This document shows, one piece after another, positions 22,383 through 52,489 of a stretch of DNA of 64,000 nt. The DNA comes from Martinezella tropici. GTDB taxonomy: Bacteria > Pseudomonadota > Alphaproteobacteria > Rhizobiales > Rhizobiaceae. Under the pieces are notes generated by a model, which saw only the letters and a list, made by a program, of their open reading frames with translations, did no database searches and was not told the origin of the DNA. The stretch is taken from assembly GCF_003287875.1 (NCBI RefSeq), contig NZ_QMKK01000054.1:558001-622000 (forward strand), in the 5' to 3' direction. Numbering within the stretch: position 1 is the first letter of the stretch; each line of letters starts with the position of its first letter. The translations under genes and the position numbers were made by a program.

Positions 22383-22390
22383 GTTTTGAG

Positions 22391-22413: not shown

Positions 22414-22439
22414 CGCCTTCCTCGACACATAGGTTCGAT

Positions 22440-23399: not shown

Positions 23400-23402
23400 G
23401 CG

Positions 23403-24278: not shown

Positions 24279-24298
24279 ACCCAAGAAAGAAAGAGACA

Positions 24299-25213: not shown

Positions 25214-25215
25214 GT

Positions 25216-35136: not shown

Positions 35137-36057
35137 ATGGCTACTGCCGAGCGTCCCATGCCGAACGAGGCAGGCATCCTGCAGTTCATGGAGATCTGCG
35201 ACTCCTTTTATCCGCCGGATGCGGTCACGGCCTCCATTACGCAACAGCGCCAATGGTATGACGCCTTATGCGCGCGCTTCGATCGCCCCTTGCCCGACGG
35301 CATGCAGACCGCGGATGATCTCGTATCCGGAACGATTCCCGTCAGGCGTTACAAGCCCGCCAATATCCGTACCGCAACGAAGCTGCTGTGTCTCCATGGC
35401 GGTGGTTTCGTCGTCGGCTCGCTTGAAAGCCATCATGCCATCTGCGCCGAGATCGCCGATCATGCCGGCGCCGAGCTGGTCTCGGTCGATTATCGGCTGG
35501 CGCCGGAATATCGCTGGCCGGCGCAGACGGATGATTGTTTCAGTGTTCTCGAGCAGCTGCTTGCCGAGAAGACGTCGGTCGTGCTGATCGGCGACAGCGC
35601 CGGCGGCAATCTCGCGGCGGGATTGGTCGTGCGGGCGCAAGCGGAGGGGCTTTCGGGAATTGTCGGCCAGATCCTGATCTACCCTGCGCTCGGCGGCGAT
35701 CTCGTCTCCGGCTCCTATGAGGAGATGGCCGACGCGCCGGGGCTGACGACCGCGGATGTCGCCTATTATCGCACCATTCTGCAGGCTCCGTCAGGCAATC
35801 CGGTCGCCGAGCCGCTTGCCTCGTCTTCCGTGGCCGGACTTCCACCAACCTTCATCACGGTTGCGCATTACGATCCTCTGCGCGACGATGGCCGCAATTA
35901 CGCGGCTCGGCTCGCGCAAGCAGGCGTCGAAGTCTGGTTCCGCGAGGAGCCGCAAATGGTGCATGCGTGGCTGCGGGCACGGCATATGAGCGAAGGTGCG
36001 CGGGTCGGCTTTGCCGCCATCTGCGCGGCGGCAAGCCGGTTTGCGGGCTCCCGTTGA
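35137..36057 (+). CDS. Alpha/beta hydrolase of the hormone-sensitive-lipase (esterase) family
   Basis: Carboxylesterase-type hydrolase of 306 residues. The oxyanion motif is HGGGF (LLCLHGGGFVVGSL), the nucleophile elbow is GDSAGGN, the acid is the Asp in VAHYDPLRDDG, and the base is the His in QMVHAWLR. The DYRLAPE block confirms the family. No signal peptide, so it acts in the cytoplasm on a short-chain ester. It converges with the CocE-type hydrolase gene, with only 1 base between the two stop codons, so the two may be functionally linked only by position. Confidence 0.9.
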   Translation: MATAERPMPNEAGILQFMEICDSFYPPDAVTASITQQRQWYDALCARFDRPLPDGMQTADDLVSGTIPVRRYKPANIRTATKLLCLHGGGFVVGSLESHHAICAEIADHAGAELVSVDYRLAPEYRWPAQTDDCFSVLEQLLAEKTSVVLIGDSAGGNLAAGLVVRAQAEGLSGIVGQILIYPALGGDLVSGSYEEMADAPGLTTADVAYYRTILQAPSGNPVAEPLASSSVAGLPPTFITVAHYDPLRDDGRNYAARLAQAGVEVWFREEPQMVHAWLRARHMSEGARVGFAAICAAASRFAGSR

Positions 36058-36058
36058 C

Positions 36059-38068
36059 CTACATCAGGTCGCGCGCGATACGCTTCTCCTCGAAGATCTT
36101 CCGGAAAATCTCGGTCTCGCCTTCATAGGCAACGACCGAGGCGCTGATCACCCAGTCCTTTGCCGTGCACGACATGGACGATGTCGCCACCGTGCGAACG
36201 AACCAGCCGGGGCGGCTCATGTCGCAGGTCCATGTCGAGATGCCCGTCATCGACAGCGGATCGTCCGGCGCGATCGACCAGACCTCTTCGCGCAACTGCC
36301 GTGTGGAAAGTCCCGTGCCGGGATGTTCGAAGAGGCCGGTGTCCTCATGAATTTCATAGCGGGTGACGCCGGCCGAGAGATCGCGCACCACCTGTCGCTT
36401 CGTCGAGCCCGGTGCATGTTCGATATATTTCGGCAGCGGATCGGGGTTGTCGGGCTGCTTGATGTCGATAATCTCATGTGCACCGAGCTGCGGCAAAGCA
36501 AGGCCGATGGAGGCGATATCGATCGTCAGTCCCGGATCTTCAGGTGGCGGCAGCACCATCGGCCAATAGGCTGTCGACAGCGACAGGCGAATGCGGTGCC
36601 CCTTGCGGAAACGATAGCCACAGGCATCGAGCGTCAGAGTCACCTGGACCTGCTGACTCTTAATCAGCGGCTCCGGCGCAGCATTGCCGTTGCGATGGGC
36701 GAGATTGAGGACGCCGAAGGAAACGCGCGTTGCCGTGCCGTCCGGATGGATATCGACGAGCCTCGCGCACAGATTGGCGGTTTCGGCATCGCACCGCAGC
36801 GTCAAGGTGACGACCGGGCGACCGAGATAGTCGTGATCCTCGACCAGTGGCGCTGTCTGGAAGGTCAGCGACCCGGCATCGTCGACACGCTGATCGATCG
36901 CCAATTCCGCATCGGGCTTCAGGGTGAACCATTCGCCCGAGGCCGTGCCCGTGTCGAGCGGCGAGCGCAGGTAGACGGGATGTTCCGGCGCATGCGGGAT
37001 CGGCATGCCTTCCATCAGCGTGCCGAATTGCTCGACATAGAAGCACTGCATCTCGGGCTGCTGCCATTCTTGCTTCGCGATCCAGAAGCCGGGGTCGAAG
37101 TCGCGGCGTGTGGCTGGCTTTATCGAATCGAGAATATAGGCACGCACCGATGGCATGGCCTCGGCGCCGTTAGGTTCGCCACGCAGCCAGTGGTTCCACC
37201 AGGCGATGGCTTCGCCATGAAAATCGACGCGCGGCTTCGGCCAGGCGAAATGCGGATATTTGTGGATCCACGGGCCGAGCAATGCCTTCGCTTTCTCGCC
37301 GAGACCCTCGACGGCCAGCAGCGGCGTGTTGCGATAACCGTCAGCCCAGCCGGCAATAACGATGGCGGGAATATCGAAGCTTGCGAAATCTTCGCAGATC
37401 GACCCGTGCCGCCAGAAATCGTCACGACGCTGATGCTGGAGCCATTCCTCCATGAAGAAAGGTTCCTGCTCAAGGCGCTCCAGCCACATATCGCGCCAGT
37501 CGTCGCCGACGATGGCTGGATCAGGCGAGCGCGACTGGTAGGCAAGCATGGTCGCCGCCCAGGAGAGCTGGGCGGAGAGATGGCAGCCGTTCTTGTAGTG
37601 GATGTCGTCATTATAGCGATCGACCGTGGAGGCGATCGATATTACCGCCTTCAACGCCGGGGGCTTCAAGGCTGCGACCTGCAGGCAGTTGAAGCCGCCC
37701 CAGGAAATGCCCATCATGCCGACCGAGCCGTTCGACCAAGGTTGTGCTGCGATCCAGGCGATCAGCTCACAGGCATTGGCGAGCTCCAGCTCGGTGTATT
37801 CGCCGTCGATAATGCCGCTGGACTCTCCGGAGCCCCTGATGTCGACACGCACGCCGGCAATCCCGGCTGCGGCGAAGACCGGGTAGGTGGATTCATCACG
37901 CGGGCTCGTTCCGTCGCGCTTGCGGTAGGGCAGGAACTCGAAGACCGCCGGCACGGGATCGCTCTCTGCGCCGTCGGGCATCCAGATGCGCGCGGCGAGC
38001 CGCGTGCCGTCCTTCAGGGTGATCCACTGATTTTCGATGGTCGTGAAGCTGCGGTCTGACATGGTCAT
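36059..38068 (-). CDS. CocE/NonD family hydrolase (X-Pro dipeptidyl-peptidase-like)
   Basis: Serine hydrolase of 669 residues. The N-terminal alpha/beta domain begins ITLKDGTRLAARIWMP and has VRVDIRGSGES and the nucleophile elbow GMMGISWGGFN. The C-terminal jelly-roll of the PepX type contains DYLGRPVVTLTLRCDAE and RKGHRIRLSLSTAYWP. Characterised members split esters or amides such as cocaine, glutaryl-7-ACA and alpha-amino acid esters. No signal peptide is visible. It starts 15 bases after a family-5 binding protein gene on the same strand, so it probably hydrolyses what that protein captures. Given the carnitine genes nearby, an acylated quaternary amine is a candidate. Confidence 0.88.
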   Translation of the reverse strand: MTMSDRSFTTIENQWITLKDGTRLAARIWMPDGAESDPVPAVFEFLPYRKRDGTSPRDESTYPVFAAAGIAGVRVDIRGSGESSGIIDGEYTELELANACELIAWIAAQPWSNGSVGMMGISWGGFNCLQVAALKPPALKAVISIASTVDRYNDDIHYKNGCHLSAQLSWAATMLAYQSRSPDPAIVGDDWRDMWLERLEQEPFFMEEWLQHQRRDDFWRHGSICEDFASFDIPAIVIAGWADGYRNTPLLAVEGLGEKAKALLGPWIHKYPHFAWPKPRVDFHGEAIAWWNHWLRGEPNGAEAMPSVRAYILDSIKPATRRDFDPGFWIAKQEWQQPEMQCFYVEQFGTLMEGMPIPHAPEHPVYLRSPLDTGTASGEWFTLKPDAELAIDQRVDDAGSLTFQTAPLVEDHDYLGRPVVTLTLRCDAETANLCARLVDIHPDGTATRVSFGVLNLAHRNGNAAPEPLIKSQQVQVTLTLDACGYRFRKGHRIRLSLSTAYWPMVLPPPEDPGLTIDIASIGLALPQLGAHEIIDIKQPDNPDPLPKYIEHAPGSTKRQVVRDLSAGVTRYEIHEDTGLFEHPGTGLSTRQLREEVWSIAPDDPLSMTGISTWTCDMSRPGWFVRTVATSSMSCTAKDWVISASVVAYEGETEIFRKIFEEKRIARDLM

Positions 38069-38083
38069 ATATCCAGAAGAGGT

Positions 38084-39664
38084 TTAGGCATTAAACCATA
38101 CACGGCTGCCGATGTAGCCGTTGGACATATCGTTGCCGATATCGTCGACATATCCCTTCAGCGTTTTCGAAGAGGCCATGATGTAGTCGTTGAAGACGGG
38201 CAGGATCAGACCGCCATCGTCTCGCACCATCAGCGCCAGCTGCCGATAAAGCACCTTGCGCTTGGCTTCATCGAGTTCAGACCGCGCCTGCAGGACCAAC
38301 TTGTCGAAGTCAGGGCGCTTGAAACGCGTGTCGTTCCATTCTGCGGTCGACAGGTAGGACGTAGAGTAGCGCGAATCCTGGGTCGGACGGCCGCCCCAGA
38401 AGGAGGCGCAGAAGGGCTGCTTGTTCCAGACATTGGTCCAGTAGCCGTCTTCCGGCTCGCGCTTGACGTCGATCGTAATGCCGGCCTTGCGCGCGCTTTG
38501 CTGGAACAGGATCGCCGCATCCACGGCGCCCGGAAAGGCTGCATCGGATGTAAGCAACTGAACGGGGCGATCGAGGCCCGATTTCTTGAAATGGAAGGCA
38601 GCCTTATCCGGATCATACGGCCGTTGCTCGATATCGGTCGGGGCGAGAGCGTAGTTGGAATTGACCGGATAGTCGTTGCCGATCGTTCCATAGCCGCCCA
38701 GAACCTTGTCGAGGATCGACTGACGGTCGATCGCATATTTCAGCGCAAGCCGAAGATCGGCGTTGTCGAAGGGCGCCGTGTCGCAATGCATCAGGAAGCA
38801 GTAGAAGCCCTTGCCGGCATTGCGGAGGATGTCGACGGTCGGTGCCCGCTTCAGCATCGGGACGGTCTTCGGGTCGACATTGTTGACGAAATGGACCTGA
38901 CCGGAGGCGAGCGCTGCAATGCGGGCGGTGTTGTCGTTGATGACGAGGATTTCGACGCTGTCGACAAAGCCGCGGTCGGAGCGCCAATCCGTAGGGTTCT
39001 TCTCGAAGGTGGCGCGAACGCCCGGTTCGAAGCTTTTCAGAATGTAGGGACCTGTACCGATGGCCGCCGCCGGCCTATCGACGCCGCCCTTCGGCTGAAT
39101 GATCAGGTGGTAATCGGTGAGAAGGAGCGGCAGGTCCGCATTGCCTTCCGAAAGCGCCAGGACAAGATCGCCTGCTTTTTCTTCAATACCGGTGATCGAG
39201 GCCATCAGCCCCAGAGCGCCGGACTGCGAATTCTTGTCTGCATGTCGTTTCAGTGTCGCGACGATATCGGCAACGGTCATCTTGCTGCCGTCGTGAAACT
39301 GCACGTCGTTCCTGATCTTGAAGGTCCAGACGGATGCATCCGCCGATGGTGTCCAGGAAATCGCCAGCGACGGCAAGGGTGCGCCGGTCTTAGGGTCGGA
39401 TTCGACAAGTGTGTCGCCCCAGAGGCGGCCAATGACGAATAAGACGGAGGCGCTATAGGTTGCCGGGTCGAGCGCATCGCTGGTGGCGCCGCCCTTGAGG
39501 CCGAGTTTCAGATGACCGCCGCGCTTCGCTTCCTCCGCGCGGGCATCGCGCGGCATCAGGAGACCGGAGGTGAGGGCAGGCAAAGCGCCCAGCGCGACGG
39601 CACCGCCCAGGAAATGGCGGCGGCCGATGCTCAGAGGCGAAGATTGGTCCTTTTCACGTGTCAT
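38084..39664 (-). CDS. ABC transporter substrate-binding protein, family 5 (Tat signal; paralogue of 44240-45829)
   Basis: Periplasmic binding protein of 526 residues. The N-terminus has a twin-arginine signal (SIGRRHFLGGAVALGALPAL), then KRGGHLKLGLKGGATSDALDPA. It is very similar over its full length to the protein of 44240-45829 (shared blocks such as GNADLPLLLTDYHL, SFEPGVRATFE, GFVDSVEI, DPKTVPMLKRAP, GRPTQDSRYSTSYLSTAEWN). The two are probably recent paralogues feeding one membrane unit (42210-44041). The ATG at 39664 is preferred over an in-frame TTG at 39682. It heads a two-gene operon with the CocE hydrolase, divergent from the XRE regulator. Confidence 0.9.
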   Translation of the reverse strand: MTREKDQSSPLSIGRRHFLGGAVALGALPALTSGLLMPRDARAEEAKRGGHLKLGLKGGATSDALDPATYSASVLFVIGRLWGDTLVESDPKTGAPLPSLAISWTPSADASVWTFKIRNDVQFHDGSKMTVADIVATLKRHADKNSQSGALGLMASITGIEEKAGDLVLALSEGNADLPLLLTDYHLIIQPKGGVDRPAAAIGTGPYILKSFEPGVRATFEKNPTDWRSDRGFVDSVEILVINDNTARIAALASGQVHFVNNVDPKTVPMLKRAPTVDILRNAGKGFYCFLMHCDTAPFDNADLRLALKYAIDRQSILDKVLGGYGTIGNDYPVNSNYALAPTDIEQRPYDPDKAAFHFKKSGLDRPVQLLTSDAAFPGAVDAAILFQQSARKAGITIDVKREPEDGYWTNVWNKQPFCASFWGGRPTQDSRYSTSYLSTAEWNDTRFKRPDFDKLVLQARSELDEAKRKVLYRQLALMVRDDGGLILPVFNDYIMASSKTLKGYVDDIGNDMSNGYIGSRVWFNA

Positions 39665-39728
39665 TGCAGTTCCCTTTTTCAACTTCGTTGGGAGGGAACG
39701 TAGAGGTCAGGCTGCTTCACGCAATTTC

Positions 39729-39760
39729 GCGACTTGACGCATCTTTAAGCGAGTTTACGC
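39729..39760. promoter_or_regulatory. Direct-repeat operator candidate between divergent genes
   Basis: Two 12-base direct repeats, GCGACTTGACGC (39729-39740) and GCGAGTTTACGC (39749-39760), matching at 10 of 12 positions with a period of 20 bases (about two helical turns). They lie between the XRE regulator and the binding-protein gene, where a regulator of both would bind. Confidence 0.45.
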
Positions 39761-39786
39761 TAGTTCATTCCAAGACGGAGTTGCGG

Positions 39787-40572
39787 ATGCCTCACCTGGT
39801 CGAGAACCTTAAAATTGCCTGCGCAACGCAGCGTTCCATTTCGCATCTGTGCCGTGCAATCGATATCAACCGGCAACAATTCAACCGATATATCAATGGT
39901 CAGACGCGGCCGTCTGCTCATAATCTGGCGCGTATCGCCAAGTATTTCGATCTGGATGCAGCCGACTTTGGTCTCGCTCCCAGGCTCTTTCGCGAGCGGC
40001 TTCGCAAACCGGCGCTGGACCTCAATCAAAGTTCCGAATTGTTAAAGGCGTTCCCCGGAGATCTAACCGCGCTCCGGCGCCATATCGGCTATTTCCAGAC
40101 CTACCATCGCTCACCGTCCTGGCCTGGAATGGTTGTCTGTTCCTGCAGTCGCATTATCGAGCAGGGCGGGCTGGTGCATGTCAAATCGATGGAGCGCCTG
40201 CGAGACCCCGGAAACGGCATCCAGCAGTTTTCGAAATATGTGGGTTTGGCCGCCTTCTATCGAAACCGGATCTTCATTACGGAGCGGGTCGTCGGCCCAA
40301 ATCCCATACTGTCACAGACGATCCTCCTGCCCTTCGACGAGTATCAGCGCGTCTATCTGCGCGGGACGACTATGGGAGTTTCCTGGCGAAAGGAAAACCT
40401 CCCTTATGCGTCGCGGATGATCTGGCGCCATGTCGGCGCCGAGCCCGATTTGCGCGAGCTTCTGTCGCGCTGCGGGCCGCTGCCGCTATCGTCACGCCGG
40501 CTGCCGCCGACGGTCCGCTCATTCCTCGCTGATCCATCCGCAGAAGTCTATGCGGTGCCGGCAGAGTATTGA
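39787..40572 (+). CDS. XRE-family helix-turn-helix regulator
   Basis: A 261-residue regulator with an N-terminal HTH at about residues 5-60 (ATQRSISHLCRAIDINRQQFNRYINGQTRPSAHNLARIAKYFDL), followed by a C-terminal domain of about 180 residues that I do not recognise (SWPGMVVCSCSRIIEQGG, FITERVVGPNPILSQTILLPFDEYQ). The architecture resembles other proteobacterial regulators with a ligand-binding tail. The start at 39787 is chosen over 39658 because CGGAG precedes it and the HTH follows at once. It is divergent from the binding protein/CocE operon and convergent with the importer operon, so it may govern either. Confidence 0.82.
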   Translation: MPHLVENLKIACATQRSISHLCRAIDINRQQFNRYINGQTRPSAHNLARIAKYFDLDAADFGLAPRLFRERLRKPALDLNQSSELLKAFPGDLTALRRHIGYFQTYHRSPSWPGMVVCSCSRIIEQGGLVHVKSMERLRDPGNGIQQFSKYVGLAAFYRNRIFITERVVGPNPILSQTILLPFDEYQRVYLRGTTMGVSWRKENLPYASRMIWRHVGAEPDLRELLSRCGPLPLSSRRLPPTVRSFLADPSAEVYAVPAEY

Positions 40573-40585
40573 AGATTTCGAGCCT

Positions 40586-42217
40586 TCAATTGCCAGCGCT
40601 TGCCATCCTCCGCGTCGTCAGCACGCGCTCCAGCCAGCCGATCTCCATCTCAGGTACGGATTTCAGCAGCAGGTCGGTGTAATCGTCGAAAGGCGGCGAC
40701 AGCGCCTCCGATTTCGGGCCGAAGCGGACGAGCTTGCCGCGATGCATCACCGCAACGCTGTCGGCGATGGCGCGCACGATGGCGATGTCATGGGTGATGA
40801 AGACGTAGGAAAGATGCGCCTCTTCCTGCAGTTTCAAGAGCAGCTTCAGAATGCCTTCGGCAACCAGCGGATCGAGTGCCGAGGTCGGCTCATCACAGAG
40901 GATGAGTTCCGGTTTGGCCGCAAGTGCTCTGGCGATGGCGACACGCTGCTTCTGCCCGCCGGAAAGCTCGGCCGGATAACGGTCGATGAAGCCATTGCCC
41001 ATCTCGATCTGATCCAGCAACTCCTTCACACGCGCCGTCTTTGCAGCGCCACGGAGGCCGTCATAGAAGGTCAGCGGGCGGCCGATGATATCGCGCACGG
41101 TCTGGCGCGGGTTCATGGCGGTATCGGCCATCTGATAGATCAACTGGATGCGCCGCAGCTCCTGCCGCGAGCGGTCTTTCAAGGCCGGTGTCAACGGCTT
41201 GCCGTCGAAGGAAATCCGCCCGTCGCTTGGCGGCAGCAGGCCGGTGATGACGCGGGCAAGCGTCGATTTGCCGGAACCGGACTCGCCGACGACCGCTAGC
41301 GTCTGGCCTTTAGGAACGTGTAGAGAAACATCGTGCAATACTTTGAAACCATTCGAGTATTGCGCACTGATATTCTCGACTTTCAAAAGTGCGCTCGTCT
41401 GATCGGCGGCTTCTGCACGCGCCTCCTGGCGGACGTTGACGAGGGCGCGGGTATAATCCTGGCGCGGCTCCTCGATGATCTGCTGGACGCTGCCATATTC
41501 CACCGTCTTGCCATGCCTCAATACCATGATGTCGTCGGAAATCTGAGCGACGACAGCGAGGTCATGGGTGATATAGAGCGCGGCCGTATGCGTCTCCTCG
41601 ATGGCGTGTTTGATGGCCGCGAGAACGTCGATCTGCGTGGTGACGTCGAGCGCGGTCGTCGGTTCGTCGAAGACGATCAGTTCGGGATTGGAGCAGAGTG
41701 CCATCGCGGTCATGGCGCGCTGCAGCTGGCCCCCGGAGACCTGATGCGGATAGCGGTCCCCGAAGGTTTCCGGATTGGGCAGGCCAAGCACGCGGAAGAG
41801 ATAGAGCGCCCGCTTTCTTGCCTCTTCCTTCGTCATCAAGCCATGTTTCACGGTTGCTTCGATCACCTGATCGCCCAGCCGATGCGCCGGATTGAAGGCG
41901 GCCGCTGCCGATTGCGCGACATAACAGACCCGGGCGCCACGAATCCTGCGGATGCCGGATTTACCGAGCGGCAGGATGTCGGTGCCGTCAAGCAATACCT
42001 GGCCACCGGTGATCTCGGCGCCGCCACGGCCATAGGCGAGGGCGGAAAGGCCGATGGTGGACTTGCCGGCACCGGACTCGCCGATCAGCCCGAGCACCTT
42101 GCCTTTCTGCAAGTCGAAGGAGACGCCATCGACGATGGTGACGCGTTTCGGTGGCTCGCCCGGCGGATAGCTGGTGGCCTCGATCTTGAGATCGCGAACG
42201 GAAAGAAGCTCAGGCAT
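40586..42217 (-). CDS. ABC transporter dual ATPase (fused DppD-DppF)
   Basis: A 543-residue protein in which the two ATPases of an Opp/Dpp-type importer are fused. First domain: Walker A GESGAGKST, signature VSGGQLQRAMTAMALC, Walker [15 protein letters not shown]. Second domain, from about residue 285: Walker [10 protein letters not shown], signature LSGGQKQRVAIARALA, Walker B LILCDEPTSALDPL. The cysteine-rich C-terminal extensions of ordinary DppD/DppF proteins are missing from both halves. The ATG at 42217 overlaps the permease stop by 8 bases and has GGGAGGG upstream. Last gene of the carnitine-type operon. Confidence 0.92.
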   Translation of the reverse strand: MPELLSVRDLKIEATSYPPGEPPKRVTIVDGVSFDLQKGKVLGLIGESGAGKSTIGLSALAYGRGGAEITGGQVLLDGTDILPLGKSGIRRIRGARVCYVAQSAAAAFNPAHRLGDQVIEATVKHGLMTKEEARKRALYLFRVLGLPNPETFGDRYPHQVSGGQLQRAMTAMALCSNPELIVFDEPTTALDVTTQIDVLAAIKHAIEETHTAALYITHDLAVVAQISDDIMVLRHGKTVEYGSVQQIIEEPRQDYTRALVNVRQEARAEAADQTSALLKVENISAQYSNGFKVLHDVSLHVPKGQTLAVVGESGSGKSTLARVITGLLPPSDGRISFDGKPLTPALKDRSRQELRRIQLIYQMADTAMNPRQTVRDIIGRPLTFYDGLRGAAKTARVKELLDQIEMGNGFIDRYPAELSGGQKQRVAIARALAAKPELILCDEPTSALDPLVAEGILKLLLKLQEEAHLSYVFITHDIAIVRAIADSVAVMHRGKLVRFGPKSEALSPPFDDYTDLLLKSVPEMEIGWLERVLTTRRMASAGN

Positions 42218-43037
42218 CGCCACGCCCTCCCTTGAGGCTGGAGGTGCGCCTTAAGAGCCAGTCGACCACCAGATTGACACAGATTGCGAGTGCCGCGATG
42301 GCAGAACCCGGCACGAGCGCGGCGGAGATGCCGAAGATGATGCCATCCTTGTTGTCCTTGACCATGCCGCCCCAGTCGGCTGCCGGCGGCTGGATGCCGA
42401 GGCCGAGGAAGGAGAGGGTGGAGAGAAACAGGATCGAGAAGGCGAAGCGCAACCCGAATTCGGCCAGCAGCGGCGATAGCGTATTCGGCAGGATCTCGCG
42501 GAAGATGATCCAGATCTTGCCCTCACCGCGCAGCTTCGCGGCTTCGACGAATTCCATGACCGCGACATCGAGCGCCACGGCGCGGCCGAGGCGATAGACG
42601 CGGGTGGAGTCGAGGATCGCCATGACGAGGATCAGCACGATCAGATTCTGCGGCAGAACCGCCAGCACGACGAGCGCGAAGATCAGTGTCGGGATCGACA
42701 TCATCAGGTCGTTGAAGCGCGAAAAGACCGTGTCGATCCATCCGCGCGAGACGGCAGCGGTAAAGCTCAGGATGATGCCGAGCGAAAAGGAAATGATCGT
42801 TGCCGCCAGCGCGACGAAGAGCGTCGTGCGGGTGCCGTAGATCAGACGCGACAGGATATCGCGGCCGAGATTGTCGAGGCCGAAGAAATATTGCGCATCG
42901 GCAGGCTGCCAGACGTTACCGACGACTTCCGTCTCGCCGAAAGGAGCGATCCAGGGCGCGAAGATCGCGCAGATGAAGGCGATCAAGATACCGATGATGC
43001 CGACCCAGGCGGTGATGGGAATATCTCTCAATCTCAT
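42210..43037 (-). CDS. ABC transporter permease, DppC type
   Basis: Inner-membrane permease of 275 residues. The N-terminus (IPITAWVGIIGILIAFICAIFAPWIAPFGE) is followed by the DppC signature YFFGLDNLGRDILSRLIYGTR. The coupling loop reads VMEFVEAAKLRGEGKIWIIFREILPNTL, and [22 protein letters not shown] completes the family pattern. It overlaps both neighbours by a few bases, indicating a tightly coupled operon with the other permease and the dual ATPase. Confidence 0.92.
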   Translation of the reverse strand: MRLRDIPITAWVGIIGILIAFICAIFAPWIAPFGETEVVGNVWQPADAQYFFGLDNLGRDILSRLIYGTRTTLFVALAATIISFSLGIILSFTAAVSRGWIDTVFSRFNDLMMSIPTLIFALVVLAVLPQNLIVLILVMAILDSTRVYRLGRAVALDVAVMEFVEAAKLRGEGKIWIIFREILPNTLSPLLAEFGLRFAFSILFLSTLSFLGLGIQPPAADWGGMVKDNKDGIIFGISAALVPGSAIAALAICVNLVVDWLLRRTSSLKGGRGDA

Positions 43038-44041
43038 CGCGGATGCCTCAGACGCGGGTTGGCGATGATGGCGAGAATGTCCGCCGTCATGTTGAGGAAG
43101 ATGTAGACCGCGGCAAAGATCAGCCCACAGGCCTGGACGACCGGCATGTCGCGCACCGTCACGGCATCGACCATATACTGACCCATGCCGGGATAGACGA
43201 AGACAACCTCGACAACGACGACGCCGACAATGAGATAGGCAAGGTTCAGCGCGATCACGTTAATGATCGGCGCCAGCGCATTGGGGGCGGCGTGCTTGAC
43301 GATGGCGCGGAAGGCGGAGAGCCCTTTGAGTTCGGCAGTTTCCATATAGGCCGAAGACATGACGGACAGAATGGCCGCGCGAGTCATGCGCATCATGTGC
43401 GCGAGCACCACCAGAACCAACGTCGCTGTCGGCAGCGCGATCGCCTTCAGCCGGTCGATGACGCCCATGCCGTCGAAGACCGTCGCCGGAAAGGTCGCGA
43501 TACCGAATTTGACGGAAAAGAACATGATGAGGAGATAGCCGATGAAGAATTCCGGCAGCGAGATCGCCGCTAGCGAGATGACATTGATGATCTTGTCCGG
43601 CATGCGGTTACGGAAGTGGACCGCCAGCATGCCCAGACAGACCGCCAGCGGCACCGAGATCAAGGCGGCAAAGCCAGCGAGAAACAGGGAATTGCCGAGC
43701 CGCTTGCCGATCTGCTCGCCGACAGAATTCTTGCTCGCCCAGGAGGTGCCGAAATCTCCCTGCACGGCGTTGCCGAGCCATTGCACATAGCGGGTGACCA
43801 CAGGCCGGTTGAGGCCAAGCTCCTCGCGGATATTGGCGACGGCCTGCGGCGTTGCGGACTGGCCAAGATAGGTGGTGGCGAAATCGCCGGGCAGGGCTTC
43901 GAGCCCGCCGAAGATCAGGACGGAAACCGCAAAGAGCAGAACGATACTGAGCACGCAACGCTCGATAATAAGGGACAGCAGCGGGAAGCGCTGCTTGAAC
44001 CTCAACCCGGGCAGAACGGTTCCGGGAGGTGAATTGGACAT
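43034..44041 (-). CDS. ABC transporter permease, DppB type
   Basis: Inner-membrane permease of 335 residues. The first helix (LLSLIIERCVLSIVLLFAVSVLIFGGLEALPGDF) is followed by a periplasmic loop (LGLNRPVVTRYVQWLGNAVQGDFGTSW), and the coupling loop is YMETAELKGLSAFRAIVKHAAPNALAPI. It overlaps the DppC-type gene by 4 bases. The two permeases form the channel fed by the binding protein of 44240-45829 and, probably, its paralogue at 38084. Confidence 0.92.
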   Translation of the reverse strand: MSNSPPGTVLPGLRFKQRFPLLSLIIERCVLSIVLLFAVSVLIFGGLEALPGDFATTYLGQSATPQAVANIREELGLNRPVVTRYVQWLGNAVQGDFGTSWASKNSVGEQIGKRLGNSLFLAGFAALISVPLAVCLGMLAVHFRNRMPDKIINVISLAAISLPEFFIGYLLIMFFSVKFGIATFPATVFDGMGVIDRLKAIALPTATLVLVVLAHMMRMTRAAILSVMSSAYMETAELKGLSAFRAIVKHAAPNALAPIINVIALNLAYLIVGVVVVEVVFVYPGMGQYMVDAVTVRDMPVVQACGLIFAAVYIFLNMTADILAIIANPRLRHPR

Positions 44042-44239: not shown

Positions 44240-45829
44240 TCAGGCGTCCAGCCAGACGCGGGTCGCGACATAGCCGTTCGACATGTCGTTGCCGATATCG
44301 TGGACGTAACCCTTCACCTGCTTGGTGGAGGCGTTCACGAAATCGTTGAACATCGGCAGGATGACGCCGCCTTCGTCGCGCACCATCATCGCCATGGCGC
44401 GGTAGAGCTCCTTGCGCTTGGCTTCGTCCAGTTCGGAGCGGGCCTGAAGCAGGAGCTTGTCGAAGTCGGGGCGCTTGAAGCGCGTGTCGTTCCAGTCCGC
44501 CGTCGAGAGATAGGCGGTGGAATACATCTGGTCCTGCGTCGGCCGTCCGCCCCAATAGGAGGTGGAGAAGGGCTGGACGTTCCAGACATTCGTCCAGTAG
44601 CCGTCGCCCGGCTCCCGCTTCACCTCGATGTTGATCCCCGCCTTCTTGCAGCTTTCCTGGTAAAGAACGGCCGCATCGACGGCGCCAGGGAAGGCGACTT
44701 CGGAGGTGCGCAGCAAGACCGATCCGCTATGGCCCGACTTCTTGTAATGGAAGGCGGCCTTATCCGGATCGTAGGCGCGCTGCTCTATGCCTTCCGGGAA
44801 GAGGGCATAGGTGCTGTTGATCGGGAAATCGTTGCCGACCTTGCCGTAGCCGCCGAGGATCTTCTTGACCATGGTCTCGCGGTCCATGGCGTATTTCAGC
44901 GCAAGGCGCAGGTCGTTGTTGTCGAAAGGCGCCTTGTCGCAATGCATGATGAAGACGTAATGGCCGCGGCCGGCTGTGGCCAGGATCTCGACGTTCGGCG
45001 CGCGCTTCAGAAGATCCACGGTCTTCGGGTCGACGCGATTGATGTAATGGACCTGACCGGACGAAAGCGCCGCAATACGCGCCGTTGCATCGTTCATGCA
45101 GATGATTTCGACGCTGTCGACGAAGCCGCGGTCGGTGCGCCAGTCGTCCTTGTTGCGCTCGAACGTGGCACGCACGCCGGGCTCGAAGCTGACCATCTTA
45201 TACGGGCCGGTACCGATCGAGGCCAAGGGATCGTCATAACCGCCATTCGGCTGGATGACGAGGTGGTAATCGGTCAACAGCAACGGCAAGTCGGCGTTGC
45301 CTTCGGTCAAGGTCAGAACGAGGTTGTCGCCATCGGCCTTGATTTCCTTGATCGACTTCACGACGCCGAGCGCGCCCGATTCCGATTTCGCATCGGTATG
45401 GCGTTTGAGCGTGGCGACGACGTCGTCGATGGTCAGATCCTTGCCATTGTGGAACTTGACGCCCTTGCGGATCTTGAAGGTCCAGGTAGCGGCATCCTTC
45501 GACGGCTCCCAGGATTCTGCGAGCGAGGGAACGGCAGCACCCGTCAGCGGGTGGGATTCCACCAGCATGTCGCCCCAGCAGCGGCCGATGCAGAACATGA
45601 CCTGCGACAGGAATTTTGCCGGGTCTTTTGAATCGGTTGCAGCACCGCCTTCGAGGCCAAGCTTAAGATGACCGCCGCGCTTCGGCTCAGCTGCCATCGC
45701 ACCTTCGGTGAAGAGTTTGTCGGCGAGCGTCAAAGTCACGCCGGCGGCCATTGCGCGTCCCATGAATTCACGGCGGCTGAGCCCGCCTGCGGTGACGCGG
45801 CTTGCGAGATATTTCGTATAGTCGTTCAT
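44240..45829 (-). CDS. ABC transporter substrate-binding protein, family 5 (Tat signal)
   Basis: Periplasmic binding protein of 529 residues exported folded by the Tat system: the signal reads LSRREFMGRAMAAGVTLTLA, ending near AMA-AEPKRGGHLKLG. SBP_bac_5 blocks include WTFKIRKGVKFHNGKDLTIDDVVATLKRH, GNADLPLLLTDYHLVIQP and DLRLALKYAMDRETMVKK. AGGGGA precedes the ATG. It links the acyl-CoA/carnitine genes (129 bases upstream, same strand) to the permeases and dual ATPase. Family-5 proteins usually carry peptides, nickel or opines, but the context suggests carnitine, gamma-butyrobetaine or a relative. Confidence 0.9.
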   Translation of the reverse strand: MNDYTKYLASRVTAGGLSRREFMGRAMAAGVTLTLADKLFTEGAMAAEPKRGGHLKLGLEGGAATDSKDPAKFLSQVMFCIGRCWGDMLVESHPLTGAAVPSLAESWEPSKDAATWTFKIRKGVKFHNGKDLTIDDVVATLKRHTDAKSESGALGVVKSIKEIKADGDNLVLTLTEGNADLPLLLTDYHLVIQPNGGYDDPLASIGTGPYKMVSFEPGVRATFERNKDDWRTDRGFVDSVEIICMNDATARIAALSSGQVHYINRVDPKTVDLLKRAPNVEILATAGRGHYVFIMHCDKAPFDNNDLRLALKYAMDRETMVKKILGGYGKVGNDFPINSTYALFPEGIEQRAYDPDKAAFHYKKSGHSGSVLLRTSEVAFPGAVDAAVLYQESCKKAGINIEVKREPGDGYWTNVWNVQPFSTSYWGGRPTQDQMYSTAYLSTADWNDTRFKRPDFDKLLLQARSELDEAKRKELYRAMAMMVRDEGGVILPMFNDFVNASTKQVKGYVHDIGNDMSNGYVATRVWLDA

Positions 45830-45958: not shown

Positions 45959-46741
45959 CTACCTTCCTTTCCAGATTGGAGCTCGCTTTTCCGCGAAAGC
46001 CCGTGCGCCTTCCAATTGATCTTCGCTCGAATAGAGGACGTCGACGGTTGCAAACTGCCGTTTGGTAATCTTATTCATGGCAGTCTGAAACGTCGAACCT
46101 TCCGCTTCACGAACGATTTCCTTGATCGCTGCATAGACGAGCGGCGGCCCGCTTGCGAGCAGGCGGGCGAGCTCCCAGGCCCTGTCCATAAGCTTGTCGG
46201 CGAGAACGATCTGGTTGACGAAGCCCCAGCGATGCGCTTCCTCGACATTGAGCCAACGGCCGGTCAACAGCATATCCATGGCGATATGATAGGGGATGCG
46301 CTTCGGAAGCTTGATCGAAGCCGCATCGGCGACGGTGCCGGAGCGGATTTCAGGCAACGCGAAGGTCGCGTGCGGCGCGGCGATGATCAGATCGGTTGAC
46401 AGAGCGATCTCCAGCCCGCCGCCGCAACAGATGCCGTTGACGGCGCAGATGATCGGCTTGTTGAGGTCGCGCAGTTCCTGCATGCCACCGAAGCCGCCGA
46501 CGCCATAATCGCCGTCGACCGCGTCACCATCAGCCGCGGCCTTCAAATCCCAGCCGGCGGAAAAGAACTTTTCGCCGGCACCGGTGACGATGGCGACGCG
46601 CAGATCCGGGTTGTCGCGGAAATCGCGAAAGATCAGCCCCATCTTGCGGCTGGTCGCGAGATCGATGGCATTCGCCTTGGGCCGGTCGATGATGACCTCG
46701 AGGATGCCGTCTTCGGAGCGGGTTCGAATGGGGTCTTGCAA
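45959..46741 (-). CDS. Enoyl-CoA hydratase/isomerase, carnitinyl-CoA dehydratase-like (crotonase)
   Basis: Crotonase-fold enzyme of 260 residues, the same size as CaiD (261). The oxyanion region is KFFSAGWDLKA and both crotonase glutamates are present, Glu111 (GGGLEIAL) and Glu131 (ALPEIRSG), which are needed for hydration chemistry. In this operon the predicted reaction is hydration of crotonobetainyl-CoA to L-carnitinyl-CoA. It starts 6 bases after the acyl-CoA synthetase stop. A general enoyl-CoA hydratase of another short-chain pathway is the alternative. Confidence 0.82.
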   Translation of the reverse strand: MQDPIRTRSEDGILEVIIDRPKANAIDLATSRKMGLIFRDFRDNPDLRVAIVTGAGEKFFSAGWDLKAAADGDAVDGDYGVGGFGGMQELRDLNKPIICAVNGICCGGGLEIALSTDLIIAAPHATFALPEIRSGTVADAASIKLPKRIPYHIAMDMLLTGRWLNVEEAHRWGFVNQIVLADKLMDRAWELARLLASGPPLVYAAIKEIVREAEGSTFQTAMNKITKRQFATVDVLYSSEDQLEGARAFAEKRAPIWKGR

Positions 46742-46747
46742 CTTCCG

Positions 46748-48805
46748 CTACCTCCTTCGCCGGATGAGGGCATCCGCCGCAATGGCGCCCCGAGATTCTG
46801 CTAGAACCATCAATGGATTAATGTCTAGTTCTTCAAGCTTTGCAGCATTCTTTACGACATATTCTGCCGCTGATAGGACGGCGTCAGCAACGATTTCGAG
46901 GCTGCTGCCTGCATTGCCGCGATAGCCTTCGATCAATTTCCGAACCTTCAGCCGCGAAATCCGCTCGAGAACCTCGGCTTTCGTCACGGGGAGTGGCAAA
47001 ACGACGGAATCCTCAAGCAATTCCACGAGAATTCCGCCCGCGCCGACCGTCAGGGTCAGGCCGACGACCGGATCGCGGACCGCACCAACGATCAGCTCCG
47101 CGATAGGGCGGTCGATCATCCGCTCGACAAGGAATCCGTGTGCGACACCGGCCATGCCGTCCGCCGCGTCCCCGACGGCGTTTCTATCCCACAGGTTGAG
47201 CTTGACCGCGCCGACATCGGACTTGTGCTCGACGCCGAGCGCCTTGAGCGCGACCGGAAAGCCGAGCTGCTCCGCGCAATCGGCCGCCTCGCCTGGCGTG
47301 GTGGCGGTCCTGCCTAGTGGGACGGCAAGGCCCGTTGCTGCAAGCTCTGCCTTGGCGGCAGCTTCACTCAGGGTCTCTACCTCGCCTTCGGTGATGGAGA
47401 CGTTGAGGAGCGGCAATGGCAGCGGCCCATTCCAGGCCTTGGCAATACCGCTGGCGATATCCGCCGCCACCAGCGTCTCGCTGATGCCGCAAAACGGCAC
47501 GATCCCAGCTTCGATCAACTGCTCGGCAATCGGTTCCGGCATGTTTTCCGGCAGGGTCGCCAGAATGCCTGCGCGGGCGCCCGACTGTTTCGCTGCCGCT
47601 GCAACCGCCGCAACAGTAATCATCCAGTCGGCGCCATCACAACGATCCTCGCGTGGGAAATCGAGAACGAGCAGATTGAGGGCATAGCCGCCGGCGAACA
47701 TGGCGCTGAAGGCCTCCGTCTGCCGGGCCAGATCACCCCAGACGAAGGTGTGATAGTCCAGCGGATTGGAAAGCGTCACCATCGGGCCGAGGCTCGCGCG
47801 CAAGGCGGGTAGCTGTTCGGGTTTCAGGGCACGGAATTCGACGTTGCGGCCGACGGCGGCATCCGCCATCAGTGAGGCCTCGCCGCCCGAACAGCTCATA
47901 GAGGAGATGGCATTGCTTTCCAGCGGCCCGGCAACATGCAGGAGTTTCAGCGTCTCTACGAGCTCCGGCAGCGTTTCGACACGACCGATGCCGAGGCGAT
48001 CGAGAACGGCGCCGGCCACCGCATCGCTGCCGGCAAGCGAGGCTGTGTGCGAAACGGTGGCGCGTTGAGCCTGTTCGGATTTTCCGACCTTCAGCGCGAC
48101 GACGGGCTTCTTCAGCTCTCGGGCGCGCATGGCGAGGGCTTCCAGTGCCCTTATATCACCGAAGCCTTCGATATGCAGGCCGACCGCTGTGACGCGCGGG
48201 TCTTCAAGAACGGCCCGCGCAAGGTCCGACAGCCCGGTCTGCGCTTGGTTGCCCGCTGTCATCAGGTAGCTGATGGGCAGGCCACGTCTCTGCATGCTCA
48301 AGTTGATGGCGATGTTGGAGGATTGCGTCAGGATCGCGACACCGCGCTCGGTTCGCACGATGCCATGCTGATCCGGCCAGAGCAGGGCGCCGTCCAACCC
48401 GTTGATCATGCCGTAACAATTCGGGCCGACGATCGGCATGCTACCTGCCGCTTCGACCAGAGCGCGCTGCAAATCCGCTCCGTCAGCCAGTTCCACCACA
48501 GCCTCGCTGAAGCCTGAGGCATAGCAGACGGCGCCGCCGGCGCCTCTGGCGGAAAGCTCGCTCACGATATCGACGGTAAGCACCCTGTTGACGCCGACGA
48601 AAGCGGCATCCGGCGCGCCAGGCAGTTCGGCGACCGACCGGTAGCAGCGGCGGCCGAGCACGTCTTCCTGTGTCGGATGCACCGGCCAGATTTCGCCGGC
48701 AAATCCCATGCGGTCGCATTGCTCGATGACGCGCCGTGCCTCTCTACCGCCGAAGACGGCGATCGTTCTGGGTCGGATCAGGCGGTCGAGCGAACGCTGG
48801 GTCAT
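46748..48805 (-). CDS. Acyl-CoA synthetase, NDP-forming (acetate-CoA ligase family)
   Basis: Fused alpha-beta NDP-forming acyl-CoA ligase, 685 residues. N-terminal CoA-binding domain (LIRPRTIAVFGG, SMPIVGPNCYGMINGLDG), succinyl-CoA-synthetase-like domains with the phosphorylated histidine in VSHTASLAGSD, and a C-terminal ATP-grasp domain (GFPVALKALGVEHKSDVGAVKLNL, LEELDINPLMVL). It would activate a carboxylate with CoA and ATP, releasing ADP and phosphate. In this operon the candidate substrate is gamma-butyrobetaine or carnitine, where E. coli uses the AMP-forming CaiC. The ATG at 48805, 4 bases after the previous stop, is preferred to 48898. Confidence 0.88.
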   Translation of the reverse strand: MTQRSLDRLIRPRTIAVFGGREARRVIEQCDRMGFAGEIWPVHPTQEDVLGRRCYRSVAELPGAPDAAFVGVNRVLTVDIVSELSARGAGGAVCYASGFSEAVVELADGADLQRALVEAAGSMPIVGPNCYGMINGLDGALLWPDQHGIVRTERGVAILTQSSNIAINLSMQRRGLPISYLMTAGNQAQTGLSDLARAVLEDPRVTAVGLHIEGFGDIRALEALAMRARELKKPVVALKVGKSEQAQRATVSHTASLAGSDAVAGAVLDRLGIGRVETLPELVETLKLLHVAGPLESNAISSMSCSGGEASLMADAAVGRNVEFRALKPEQLPALRASLGPMVTLSNPLDYHTFVWGDLARQTEAFSAMFAGGYALNLLVLDFPREDRCDGADWMITVAAVAAAAKQSGARAGILATLPENMPEPIAEQLIEAGIVPFCGISETLVAADIASGIAKAWNGPLPLPLLNVSITEGEVETLSEAAAKAELAATGLAVPLGRTATTPGEAADCAEQLGFPVALKALGVEHKSDVGAVKLNLWDRNAVGDAADGMAGVAHGFLVERMIDRPIAELIVGAVRDPVVGLTLTVGAGGILVELLEDSVVLPLPVTKAEVLERISRLKVRKLIEGYRGNAGSSLEIVADAVLSAAEYVVKNAAKLEELDINPLMVLAESRGAIAADALIRRRR

Positions 48806-48809
48806 GGGC

Positions 48810-49970
48810 TCATGCTCCGAACGGCCGAAGCAGGTCGCGGCTGATGATGTGCCGCTGGATTTCCGAGGTGCCGTCCCAGATGCGTTCGACGCGGGCATCG
48901 CGCCAGAAGCGGGCGAGCGGCAGGTCGTCCATCAGGCCCATGCCGCCAAAGATCTGGATTGCCTCGTCGGTGACGCGAGCGAGCATTTCCGACGCATAGA
49001 GCTTGGCCGAGGCGATTTCGCGATTGGCCGGGATCCGAGCATCGAGCTTCCAGGCGGCCGACAGTGTGAGCAGATCGGCCGCGTCGATCTCAGTGATCAT
49101 GTCGGCGAGCTTGAACGACACGCCTTGATTGGCGCCGATCGGCTTGCCGAATTGCTTGCGCTCAGCCGCATAGGACAGGGCCAGATCAAAGGTGCGTCGC
49201 GCCCGGCCGACGCAGGTGGCGGCAACCGTCAGGCGGGTCCCGTAGAGCCACTGATTGGCAAGATCAAAACCGCGATGCACCTCTCCGAGCACCTGTGATT
49301 TAGGCAGGCGGCAATCGGTGAAGTTCAGGATGCAGTTGTGATAGCCGCGATGGGAGACCGAGTCATAACCCTTCAGTATCTCGAAGCCTGGGGTGCTGCG
49401 ATCGACCAGGAAGGCTGTGATCTTCTTCTTGAGGCCACGATGTGTGTCTTCCTCGCCGGTTGCGGCAAAGACGATGACGAAATCGGCGACATCGGCATGC
49501 GAGATGAAATGCTTCGTGCCGTTGAGTACGAAATCGTTACCATCCTGCCGTGCTGCGCATTTCATGCCGCGCATGTCGGAGCCGGCATCCGGTTCGGTGA
49601 TGGCGAGCGCATCGACCCTTTCCCCGCGCACTGCCGGCAGGAGGTAGCGCTCCCTCTGCTCGCCCTCGCAGGCCATCAGGATGCCGGATGGGCGTCCGAA
49701 GAAGACGGTGAGCCCCATCGAGCCGCGGCCGAGCTCGCGTTCAACGAGCGTGAAGGTGACGTGATCGAGCCCGGCGCCGCCGACCTCCTCCGGGAAATTG
49801 CAAGCATAGAAGCCGAGCTCGATACATTTGCGCTTGATCTCCAGCCCAAGATCGGGTGGCACGAAGCCGGTGCGCTCGACCTCGTTTTCGTGCGGATAGA
49901 TCTCCGTCTCGACGAAGTCCCTGACCGTCTTGACGATCATCTCCTGTTCTTCGCTGAGCCCGAAATTCAC
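48810..49970 (-). CDS. Acyl-CoA dehydrogenase, gamma-butyrobetainyl-CoA dehydrogenase candidate
   Basis: FAD-dependent dehydrogenase of 386 residues. Recognised by the central FAD/substrate motif ALAITEPDAGSDMRGMKCAA, the PIGANQGVSFKLADM block, and the C-terminal QIFGGMGLMDDLPLARFWRDARVERI. The residue at the usual catalytic-base position is Asp366 (IWDGTSEIQ) rather than the Glu of the common IYEGT motif. In context it would oxidise gamma-butyrobetainyl-CoA to crotonobetainyl-CoA and pass electrons to ETF. The adjacent CoA ligase (4 bases) and crotonase supply the step before and after. Confidence 0.86.
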   Translation of the reverse strand: MNFGLSEEQEMIVKTVRDFVETEIYPHENEVERTGFVPPDLGLEIKRKCIELGFYACNFPEEVGGAGLDHVTFTLVERELGRGSMGLTVFFGRPSGILMACEGEQRERYLLPAVRGERVDALAITEPDAGSDMRGMKCAARQDGNDFVLNGTKHFISHADVADFVIVFAATGEEDTHRGLKKKITAFLVDRSTPGFEILKGYDSVSHRGYHNCILNFTDCRLPKSQVLGEVHRGFDLANQWLYGTRLTVAATCVGRARRTFDLALSYAAERKQFGKPIGANQGVSFKLADMITEIDAADLLTLSAAWKLDARIPANREIASAKLYASEMLARVTDEAIQIFGGMGLMDDLPLARFWRDARVERIWDGTSEIQRHIISRDLLRPFGA

Positions 49971-49982
49971 GATCGCTTCCTC

Positions 49983-51480: not shown

Positions 51481-52383
51481 TCAGCGCTTCGTCAGTTTCA
51501 ACTTCTTGCGGACATCTTCGGGGCCGATGATGCGCGCGCCCATGCCTTCCACCACCTGCACCGCCTTTTCGACGAGCTGCGCGTTGGTCGCGAGCATGCC
51601 CTTTCCGGCATAGAGATTGTCCTCCAGCCCGACGCGGACATTGCCGCCGGCAAGGATCGCAGCCGCCGGGTAGGCCATCGCGTTGCGACCGATGGAAAAG
51701 GCCGAGAAGGTCCAGCTTTTGGGAACGTTATTGACCATCGCCATAAAGGTGTTGAGGTCATCGGGCGCCCCCCAGGGGATGCCCATGCAGAGCTGGATGA
51801 GAACCGGATCCTCGATCAAGCCCTCCTCGGCAAGCTGCTTGGCGAACCAGAGATGACCGGTATCGAAGGCCTCGATCTCGGGGCGCACGCCGAGATCGGT
51901 CATCTTCTTCGCCATGGCCCGCAGCATCGAGGGCGTGTTGGTCATGACGTAGTCGCCAAGATTGAAGTTCATCGTGCCGCAATCGAGCGTGCAGATTTCA
52001 GGCAGGCATTCGGCGACATGGCTGACACGCTCGGTGGCGCCGGCCATATCGGTGCCCTTGGCATTCAGGGGCAGGGGGCTCTCGACATCGCCGAAAATCA
52101 AGTCGCCGCCCATGCCGGCGGTCAGGTTCAGTACGACATCGATGTCTGCCGAACGGATACGGTCGGTCACTTCCCTATAGAGCTCGTTGCGGCGGCTGGC
52201 GGCGCCCGTTTCCGGATCGCGGACATGGCAGTGAACCACTGCCGCCCCAGCCTTGGCGGCGTCGATCGCGGATTCCGCGATCTGCTTGGGAGTGATCGGA
52301 ACATGGCTGGATTTGGAAACCGTATCGCCGGCGCCGGTGACGGCACAGGTGATGAAGACATCGCGATTCATTGCAAGAGGCAT
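51481..52383 (-). CDS. BKACE-family beta-keto acid cleavage enzyme (DUF849), 3-dehydrocarnitine type
   Basis: Zinc-dependent (beta/alpha)8 enzyme of 300 residues, the family's normal size. Metal histidines are His51 and His53 (VVHCHVRDPETGA); other family blocks are LTAGMGGD, CTLDCGTMNFNLGD and PEIEAFDTGHLWFAKQL. BKACE enzymes condense a beta-keto acid with acetyl-CoA and release acetoacetate. Next to carnitine dehydrogenase the expected reaction is 3-dehydrocarnitine plus acetyl-CoA to betainyl-CoA plus acetoacetate. The frame extends to 52599, but the ATG at 52383 has GGGAGAA upstream and gives the standard N-terminus. First gene of the minus-strand operon. Confidence 0.88.
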   Translation of the reverse strand: MPLAMNRDVFITCAVTGAGDTVSKSSHVPITPKQIAESAIDAAKAGAAVVHCHVRDPETGAASRRNELYREVTDRIRSADIDVVLNLTAGMGGDLIFGDVESPLPLNAKGTDMAGATERVSHVAECLPEICTLDCGTMNFNLGDYVMTNTPSMLRAMAKKMTDLGVRPEIEAFDTGHLWFAKQLAEEGLIEDPVLIQLCMGIPWGAPDDLNTFMAMVNNVPKSWTFSAFSIGRNAMAYPAAAILAGGNVRVGLEDNLYAGKGMLATNAQLVEKAVQVVEGMGARIIGPEDVRKKLKLTKR

Positions 52384-52489
52384 TTTTGTTCTCCCTCGTA
52401 TTAAGGACATTACGAGCCATGAGACGCCTTCATGCTTTGCATTATCGGAGGCATTCGATACAGTTTCGGAACTACTGGAGGAATGCGTG

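Follow-up and report, generated by a model that had tools for sequence, protein, structure and literature searches.

A 64,000-nucleotide stretch of the Martinezella tropici genome (contig NZ_QMKK01000054.1, positions 558,001 to 622,000; the window in what follows) carries a carnitine operon with its own ATP-binding cassette (ABC) importer. Between the genes for the importer's ATPase and for a CocE-type serine hydrolase (CocE) lie two divergent genes, one for a second binding protein (SBP2; SBP1 is the binding protein (SBP) of the carnitine operon) and one for a regulator of the XRE type. Our firmest new result, from nucleotide comparison, is that this XRE|SBP2 pair is a cassette which has been exchanged and which occupies one fixed place in the operon. 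The best reading of the arrangement, on which we are evenly divided, is that one importer is used by two binding proteins and that the ligand of the second is cleaved by CocE. Its least certain part is the identity of that ligand: a carnitine-type ester is a tentative suggestion, with the weight of expectation somewhat against it.

The proposed mechanism would run as follows. XRE and SBP2 would constitute a self-regulated cassette, passed between species by recombination and residing in the ATPase-CocE slot. SBP2 would take its ligand in the periplasm and hand it to the same permeases that serve SBP1; CocE, a cytoplasmic enzyme of the importer operon, would split the imported ester or amide; and, where a genome has the carnitine branch, the quaternary amine set free would enter it at the carnitine 3-dehydrogenase CdhA. 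XRE, acting on a conserved block of DNA, would respond to an inducer of its own and permit production of SBP2 and CocE independently of the regulator of the carnitine operon. Of all this, the gene order, the clades, the exchange of the cassette, the conserved block and the conserved catalytic residues are visible in the sequence itself; the sharing of permeases, the site and sequence of cleavage and the mode of regulation are proposed from it.

Exchange of the XRE|SBP2 cassette

The signature of exchange is found at four-fold degenerate sites. In seven R. etli-group loci (L087, L091, L093 and L102-L105) identity to the window at these sites is 0.76-0.80 in SBP2 and 0.66-0.72 in XRE, as against 0.54-0.59 in CocE and 0.52-0.56 in the ATPase gene; in an eighth (L067) CocE is also raised, to 0.68. 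Counted as identical sites, the cassette has 318/416 and CocE plus ATPase 331/573 (Fisher p 9e-10); a second R. tropici-group/R. etli-group comparison gives 304/414 and 319/568 (p 2e-8), and R. tropici CIAT 899 with R. etli CFN 42 gives 277/405 and 304/561 (p 8e-6). Within the R. tropici group, SBP2 is generally no more alike at four-fold sites than its neighbours are, and codon constraint therefore does not explain the contrast. When identity is followed in 300-bp steps, the segment bounded by the 5' end of CocE and the 3' end of the ATPase gene gives 0.84-0.94; in the rest of CocE it is mostly 0.68-0.79 (0.75-0.89 for L067), and in the ATPase gene it falls to 0.72 and then ranges over 0.73-0.87. 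Since the silent-site excess extends in this way into the near ends of both flanking genes, the cassette was exchanged by recombination. Counting against so simple a picture is PermC, one of the importer's two permeases, whose four-fold identity in the R. etli comparisons (0.65-0.70) equals that of XRE, so that the excess is clearest for SBP2.

Plasmid p42c of R. etli CFN 42 offers a concrete case: at 141-147 kb it has ATPase, divergent regulator, SBP2, CocE and an alpha/beta hydrolase in the order of the window, with a cassette close to the window's and flanking genes that are far more diverged. (R. tropici CIAT 899 carries an extra gene in this region.) A tree of 85 CocE rows does not separate operons that have the cassette from those that lack it, and 12 changes are needed for its 23 hybrid rows; the cassette has therefore been gained, lost or replaced repeatedly. 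A search of ATPase-CocE gaps found no remnants of SBP2 or XRE, and that favours neither gain nor loss in most lineages. (The trees referred to here and below are quick searches; they took 16 (SBP) and 17 (CocE) of the 60 Rhizobium stretches described in the next section together with loci L106-L176, and rows below length or identity limits were dropped.) At somewhat less than an even chance, the ATPase-CocE slot may be a site of exchange at which Rhizobium species swap the cassette by recombination in the genes on either side; a single event would then give a constant permease-esterase core both a different ligand and a different inducer.

An optional insert in the importer operon

Sixty Rhizobium stretches were picked from CocE and SBP2 matches and are a non-random sample of the genus; 59 have a CocE locus, which in three is a fragment of CocE at a contig end. 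Thirty carry carnitine genes, permeases, ATPase, XRE, two SBPs and CocE; another 24 have the carnitine genes, permeases, ATPase, one SBP and CocE (full length in 22, a fragment at a contig end in two) with no XRE or SBP2. Four have only CocE, SBP2 and XRE (one with a CocE fragment), one has permeases, ATPase and CocE with no carnitine genes, and one has SBP2 and XRE without CocE. R. etli CFN 42 and R. tropici CIAT 899 are examples with the cassette, R. johnstonii 3841 without it. This gene order marks XRE|SBP2 as an optional insertion at the junction of the ATPase and CocE genes.

CocE adjoins the ATPase gene in 25 of 25 Rhizobium stretches that have permeases but no XRE and is thus part of the importer operon. 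Over all loci measured, the ATPase-CocE gap is 12-91 bp in 34 of 49 and the SBP2-CocE gap 11-38 bp in 42 of 60. Carnitine genes lie in the same stretch for 54 of the 59 Rhizobium CocE loci, and three stretches that are without the enoyl-CoA hydratase, synthetase and acyl-CoA dehydrogenase genes retain CocE together with CdhA and a BKACE-type gene. Because CocE belongs to the importer operon, its presence alone is no evidence that SBP2 brings an ester. An earlier note on this DNA had taken the hydrolase for SBP2's own partner; the 24 stretches that keep CocE beside the carnitine ABC operon without SBP2 speak against this, and CocE as a private enzyme of SBP2 was rejected.

Other parts of the layout proposed in that note are borne out. 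No permease genes adjoin SBP2 in the window. Cotranscription of SBP2 with the hydrolase fits the 15 bp that separate the SBP2 stop from the CocE start on one strand and the frequency of terminator-like matches in 38000-40700, which is at chance level (two found, 2.7 expected). XRE is indeed a helix-turn-helix gene divergent from SBP2, and the same divergent pairing with an SBP gene holds for 35/35 Rhizobium, 30/30 other-genus and 6/6 plasmid XRE loci.

Two binding proteins with separate histories

SBP1 and SBP2 are reciprocal best matches within their own genome (816 bits, the next match reaching 300) among 25 SBP_bac_5 matches in the 6.95 Mb and 61 contigs that were searched. The two had been called near-identical in-paralogues, a description that does not survive comparison. 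They are identical at 348 of 514 residues (68%), and of the 95 SBPs placed in a tree, 47 are XRE-adjacent (23 hybrid, 16 orphan, 6 complete and 2 without CocE) and make up one multi-genus clade with an SH-aLRT value of 100, outside which the carnitine-operon SBPs fall, with a base that this tree does not resolve. Both groups contain Rhizobium and many other genera, and the split is therefore older than Rhizobium; SBP2 as a recent copy of SBP1 was rejected on the evidence of this tree.

At 22 positions, 47 carnitine-operon SBPs and 41 XRE-adjacent SBPs are each at least 90% conserved and yet differ from one another; several of these changes, known from alignment alone, are from large to small side chains. 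They bear on the possibility that SBP2 simply binds the quaternary amine of SBP1 (L-carnitine or gamma-butyrobetaine, for example) with another affinity or under another control, and that CocE serves the ligands of both. A common ligand would sit well with 68% identity, with permeases in common and with the persistence of CocE in operons that lack SBP2, but less well with a long separate history in which these differences became fixed and with SBP2's possession of its own regulator and candidate operator; we consider it unlikely. The WGGRPTQD motif was also set against six further SBPs encoded in the genome, together with the SBP at 20790, and this gave no decision on ligand chemistry. The twin-arginine-type motif of SBP2 was read by eye, and its R15 and R16 are invariant in 23 SBPs.

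A proposed single importer for two binding proteins

A single permease/ATPase set stands beside two SBPs in the window as well as in 30 of the 60 Rhizobium stretches, and from this order we infer that the permeases are shared. At six loci, relatives of SBP2 have permeases and ATPase of their own, respectively 69-73% and 76-78% identical to the window's, and this resemblance makes docking of SBP2 on shared permeases plausible. Eleven genomes have XRE|SBP2-CocE without adjoining permeases, and all eleven encode a protein at least 60% identical to PermB (the other permease of the importer) elsewhere, as do four of nine control genomes without the module (nine of nine match at E 1e-60); in seven of the eleven, no more than about 8 kb separates PermB from CdhA. 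Of two Shinella plasmid records searched for PermB, one had a match at 51% and one was without a match. The earlier note's idea of a substrate variant that enters through the neighbouring permeases and is cleaved inside is thus upheld in part: gene order, the related permeases and a CocE that shows no signal sequence agree with it, whereas its assumptions that CocE is specific to SBP2 and that SBP2 is a recent copy fall away.

SBP2 might, alternatively, be a sensor or buffer that feeds no permease, or might use other dipeptide-type permeases of the cell. Two SBP2-XRE loci without adjoining CocE or permeases (L095, and L115 from R. leguminosarum Ta9k) point in this direction, as do the many other SBP_bac_5 systems of the genome, one of which lies within the window, where a second dipeptide-type ABC operon, unrelated to the carnitine importer, occupies 20790-27189 and includes an SBP. 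Against it, the relatives of SBP2 at the six loci just mentioned directly precede permeases of the carnitine importer's family, and in the second operon of the window a permease shares only 35% identity with PermB (and the SBP 25% with SBP2). We regard this alternative as very improbable.

The CocE-type hydrolase

That the gene next to SBP2 encodes a large serine hydrolase of the CocE type, as had been noted from its open reading frame, is confirmed by matches to PF02129, PF08530 and TIGR00976, all above cut-off; for the last of these the curated cut-off, 66.3 bits, marks membership of the CocE/NonD family. The catalytic triad S122-D243-H269 and oxyanion residue Y48 are invariant in 16 relatives and align with the triad and oxyanion tyrosine of cocaine esterase. 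A model of CocE (mean predicted local distance difference test (pLDDT) score 67, used for fold matching alone) matches CocE/NonD structures with Z 23-24. The fold is common to Rhodococcus cocaine esterase CocE (1ju3, Z 23.5) and S. aureus SACOL2612 (3ib3, Z 24.2), as are the catalytic residues; the window's protein differs from both in being about 18-24% identical by structural alignment and in having an extra C-terminal stretch of about 140 residues. This stretch (residues ~530-669; 36062-36480, minus strand) lies past the CocE fold and is beta-rich in the model; from about residue 530 no Pfam match was found and, among the structure matches listed, none extends past about that residue, the stretch having been searched as part of the whole model.

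Two other assignments were rejected. The alpha-amino acid ester hydrolases (AEH) belong to the same superfamily and have the same order of triad residues (Z about 21). According to PMC3890990, their acids (Glu, Asp) at positions +2 and +3 from the triad Asp bind the alpha-amino group; the window's CocE has Y245 and R246, invariant in 16 relatives, in place of this carboxylate cluster, and alpha-amino esters are therefore not expected to be its substrates. As an Xaa-Pro dipeptidyl-peptidase (PRK05371) it scores 80.6, 59.5 and 30.4 bits against cut-offs of 642, 711 and 881. CocE shows no signal sequence when read by eye, and since it does not, cleavage would come after import.

A second, HSL-type esterase gene, convergent with CocE, is kept beside it at 52 of the 59 CocE loci in Rhizobium and at 28 of the 60 in other genera; its product, for which the best PDB match is 8yqj ('Lipase'), may share CocE's substrate. 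A CocE/NonD protein reported as strongly expressed in acesulfame-grown Shinella (PMC11500405) could not be matched to the CocE of the window.

Regulation

The spacer between XRE and SBP2 contains a block of ~41 bp that is conserved over 78 distinct intergenic sequences. With up to 6 mismatches in 27 positions it is present at 100 of 104 XRE loci, the four misses (L108, L109, L166 and L175) all being complete modules, and no site away from XRE was found in 211 loci; loci L177-L256 partly repeat the places of L046-L105, so that neither the 104 nor the 211 are all distinct places. The block occurs once in the window, and the genome has one further match, with 3 mismatches. It is a candidate operator for XRE. 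Three direct repeats with a 10-bp period lie in it (39722-39762) and overlap a possible promoter, CTTGACG ... TACGCTA, that was read by eye. XRE itself has a sub-threshold match to BetR (E 0.031). The carnitine operon has its own regulator, a GbdR/CdhR-like AraC protein scoring below the GbdR cut-off, and we infer that control of the cassette is separate from it.

Distribution and the link to carnitine

In a family-wide sample, CocE (E at most 1e-200) is found in 69 of 297 genomes and 33 of 109 genera, 66 of the 69 matches being at least 63% identical, and CdhA (E at most 1e-100) accompanies it in 64 of the 69 genomes, compared with 117 of the 228 others (Fisher p 5e-11). From 70 listed CocE places in those 69 genomes, 60 (59 genomes) were fetched; four of the window's own genus, one partial, three at 48-49% identity and two for reasons of space were left out. 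Among the 60 other-genus stretches, the carnitine operon has XRE|SBP2 inserted in 15 and lacks it in 14; XRE|SBP2-CocE stands alone in 11 and CocE alone in seven; an SBP-permeases-ATPase-CocE group without carnitine genes occurs in five; XRE|SBP2 has its own permeases and CocE in four (six such complete modules in all, counting plasmids of Nitratireductor OM-1 and Martelella NC20); and in four, which belong to a single genus, this importer is missing and the distance from CocE to the enoyl-CoA hydratase gene is 3.0-3.6 kb. (At one of these, L162, another gene on the opposite strand intervenes.) Orthologues of the carnitine genes in R. etli and R. johnstonii are named carnitine 3-dehydrogenase and carnitinyl-CoA dehydratase in RefSeq.

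Several observations weigh against the carnitine-centred proposal. Complete XRE|SBP2-permease-ATPase-CocE modules occur without adjoining carnitine genes (L108, L109, L164, L166, L174 and L175), and only one of the four whole genomes that have such a module encodes CdhA. Of the 69 CocE matches, three reach no more than 48-49% identity, and the co-occurrence counts ignore kinship. In front of the carnitine operon within the window the candidate operator is absent. The AlphaFold model of SBP2 (mean pLDDT 55) is too poor for inspection of the pocket.

The complete modules without carnitine genes and the rarity of CdhA in their genomes, together with the separate regulator and candidate operator, suggest another possibility, that the ligand of SBP2 and CocE has nothing to do with carnitine and is some other ester or amide (from plants, for example), and that the cassette lies where it does for the sake of CocE and a compatible permease. 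SBP1-permease-ATPase-CocE groups without carnitine genes, in Thalassospira and at several other loci, are also in its favour, as is a survey of the protein families recurring beside CocE at 31 orphan, full and lone loci, in which no recurrent catabolic partner was found, for the complete modules among others. What makes it rather unlikely in our estimation is that CocE is found in the carnitine operon, with or without SBP2, at 54 of 59 Rhizobium CocE loci, that CdhA is encoded in 10 of the 11 genomes having XRE|SBP2-CocE without an adjoining permease, and that in one genus CocE stays close to the carnitine enzymes at four of four loci that lack this importer.

Literature searches found no paper joining CocE, hydrolase, gene cluster and carnitine, and none joining Rhizobium, carnitine, ABC transporter and carnitine dehydrogenase; PMC3333776 makes no mention of carnitine, betaine or CocE. 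PMC8751395 names 3-dehydrocarnitine among the reporter metabolites for R. leguminosarum 3841 in a comparison involving the sugar beet rhizosphere. At four loci in Neorhizobium and related bacteria (L240, L226, L256 and L117), SBP1-permeases-ATPase-CocE and the HSL-type gene stand beside what appear by eye to be genes of cobalamin synthesis, not carnitine genes.

A parallel in Pseudomonas

In P. aeruginosa the binding protein CaiX uses the Cbc core transporter, and its operon also contains cdhA and the acylcarnitine hydrolase gene hocS (PMC5806209). In the caiX-cdhCAB-hocS operon, as in the window, a permease-less SBP, carnitine dehydrogenase and an esterase are thus found in one carnitine operon; CbcWV serves several binding proteins, and the same is proposed here from gene order alone. 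The differences are that the window's SBPs are of the SBP_bac_5 family and its hydrolase of the CocE/S15 family, that SBP1 and its permeases lie in the same operon, and that the additional SBP travels as a cassette together with an XRE regulator of its own; CocE is likened to HocS by putative role and gene order. If the proposal of two binding proteins on one importer is right, it offers, with different protein families, a second version of the Pseudomonas arrangement in which one transporter serves several SBPs, it links a large CocE-type esterase family to the way in which root-associated bacteria take up and use carnitine-like compounds, and it makes of the importer a system that can be retargeted by exchange of a two-gene cassette. 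It is directly testable in the strains already named, R. etli CFN 42 and R. tropici CIAT 899 with the cassette and R. johnstonii 3841 without.

Features of the locus

Coordinates are collected in Table 1; the cut-off for PF00496 is 32.4 bits.

Table 1. Genes and other features of the carnitine importer locus in the window
Feature	Position	Strand	Evidence or remark
HSL-type esterase (Abhydrolase_3)	35137..36057	+	convergent with CocE
CocE/NonD (peptidase S15 family) serine hydrolase	36059..38068	-	PF02129 228 bits, PF08530 118.5 bits; TIGR00976 218 bits
Approximate exchanged tract (+/- 300 bp)	37540..41140		5' part of CocE, SBP2, XRE, 3' part of ATPase
SBP2, SBP_bac_5 binding protein, twin-arginine-type N-terminus	38084..39664	-	PF00496 242.3 bits
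Candidate XRE operator, conserved block	39722..39762	+	TTGACGC-N3-TTTAAGC-N3-TTTACGC direct repeats
XRE-type (HTH_26) regulator, divergent from SBP2	39787..40572	+	HTH_26 29.9 bits, cut-off 22
ABC ATPase, two ABC_tran domains	40586..42223	-	profile matches
Permease PermC	42210..43037	-	profile matches
Permease PermB	43034..44041	-	profile matches
SBP1, carnitine-operon binding protein	44240..45829	-	PF00496 261.3 bits
Enoyl-CoA hydratase family (ECH), ADP-forming acyl-CoA synthetase type (ACS), acyl-CoA dehydrogenase (ACAD), CdhA	45959..51473	-
CdhA carnitine 3-dehydrogenase	49983-51473	-	PRK07531 931.2 bits, above cut-off 592
DUF849/BKACE-type cleavage enzyme	51481..52599	-	start uncertain
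GbdR/CdhR-like AraC regulator	52253..53482	+	208.7 bits to GbdR, below cut-off 480; start uncertain

The window has no extra gene between the end of XRE at 40572 and the ATPase gene at 40586. The XRE-ATPase distance exceeds 1.2 kb at 13 of the 30 Rhizobium cassette loci; in the gap that was examined (L052, 7300-8406) the extra gene encodes a Thioesterase domain (PF00975, 53.3 bits), a third hydrolase. At L112 (S. meliloti AK57 pSymA) broken-up CocE-like pieces lie near insertion-sequence genes. A 9.8-kb core of the region is matched by 240 plasmid records, 190 of them from Rhizobium; top among the matches listed are Rhizobium sp. 11515TR and R. tropici CIAT 899, at 91.7%.

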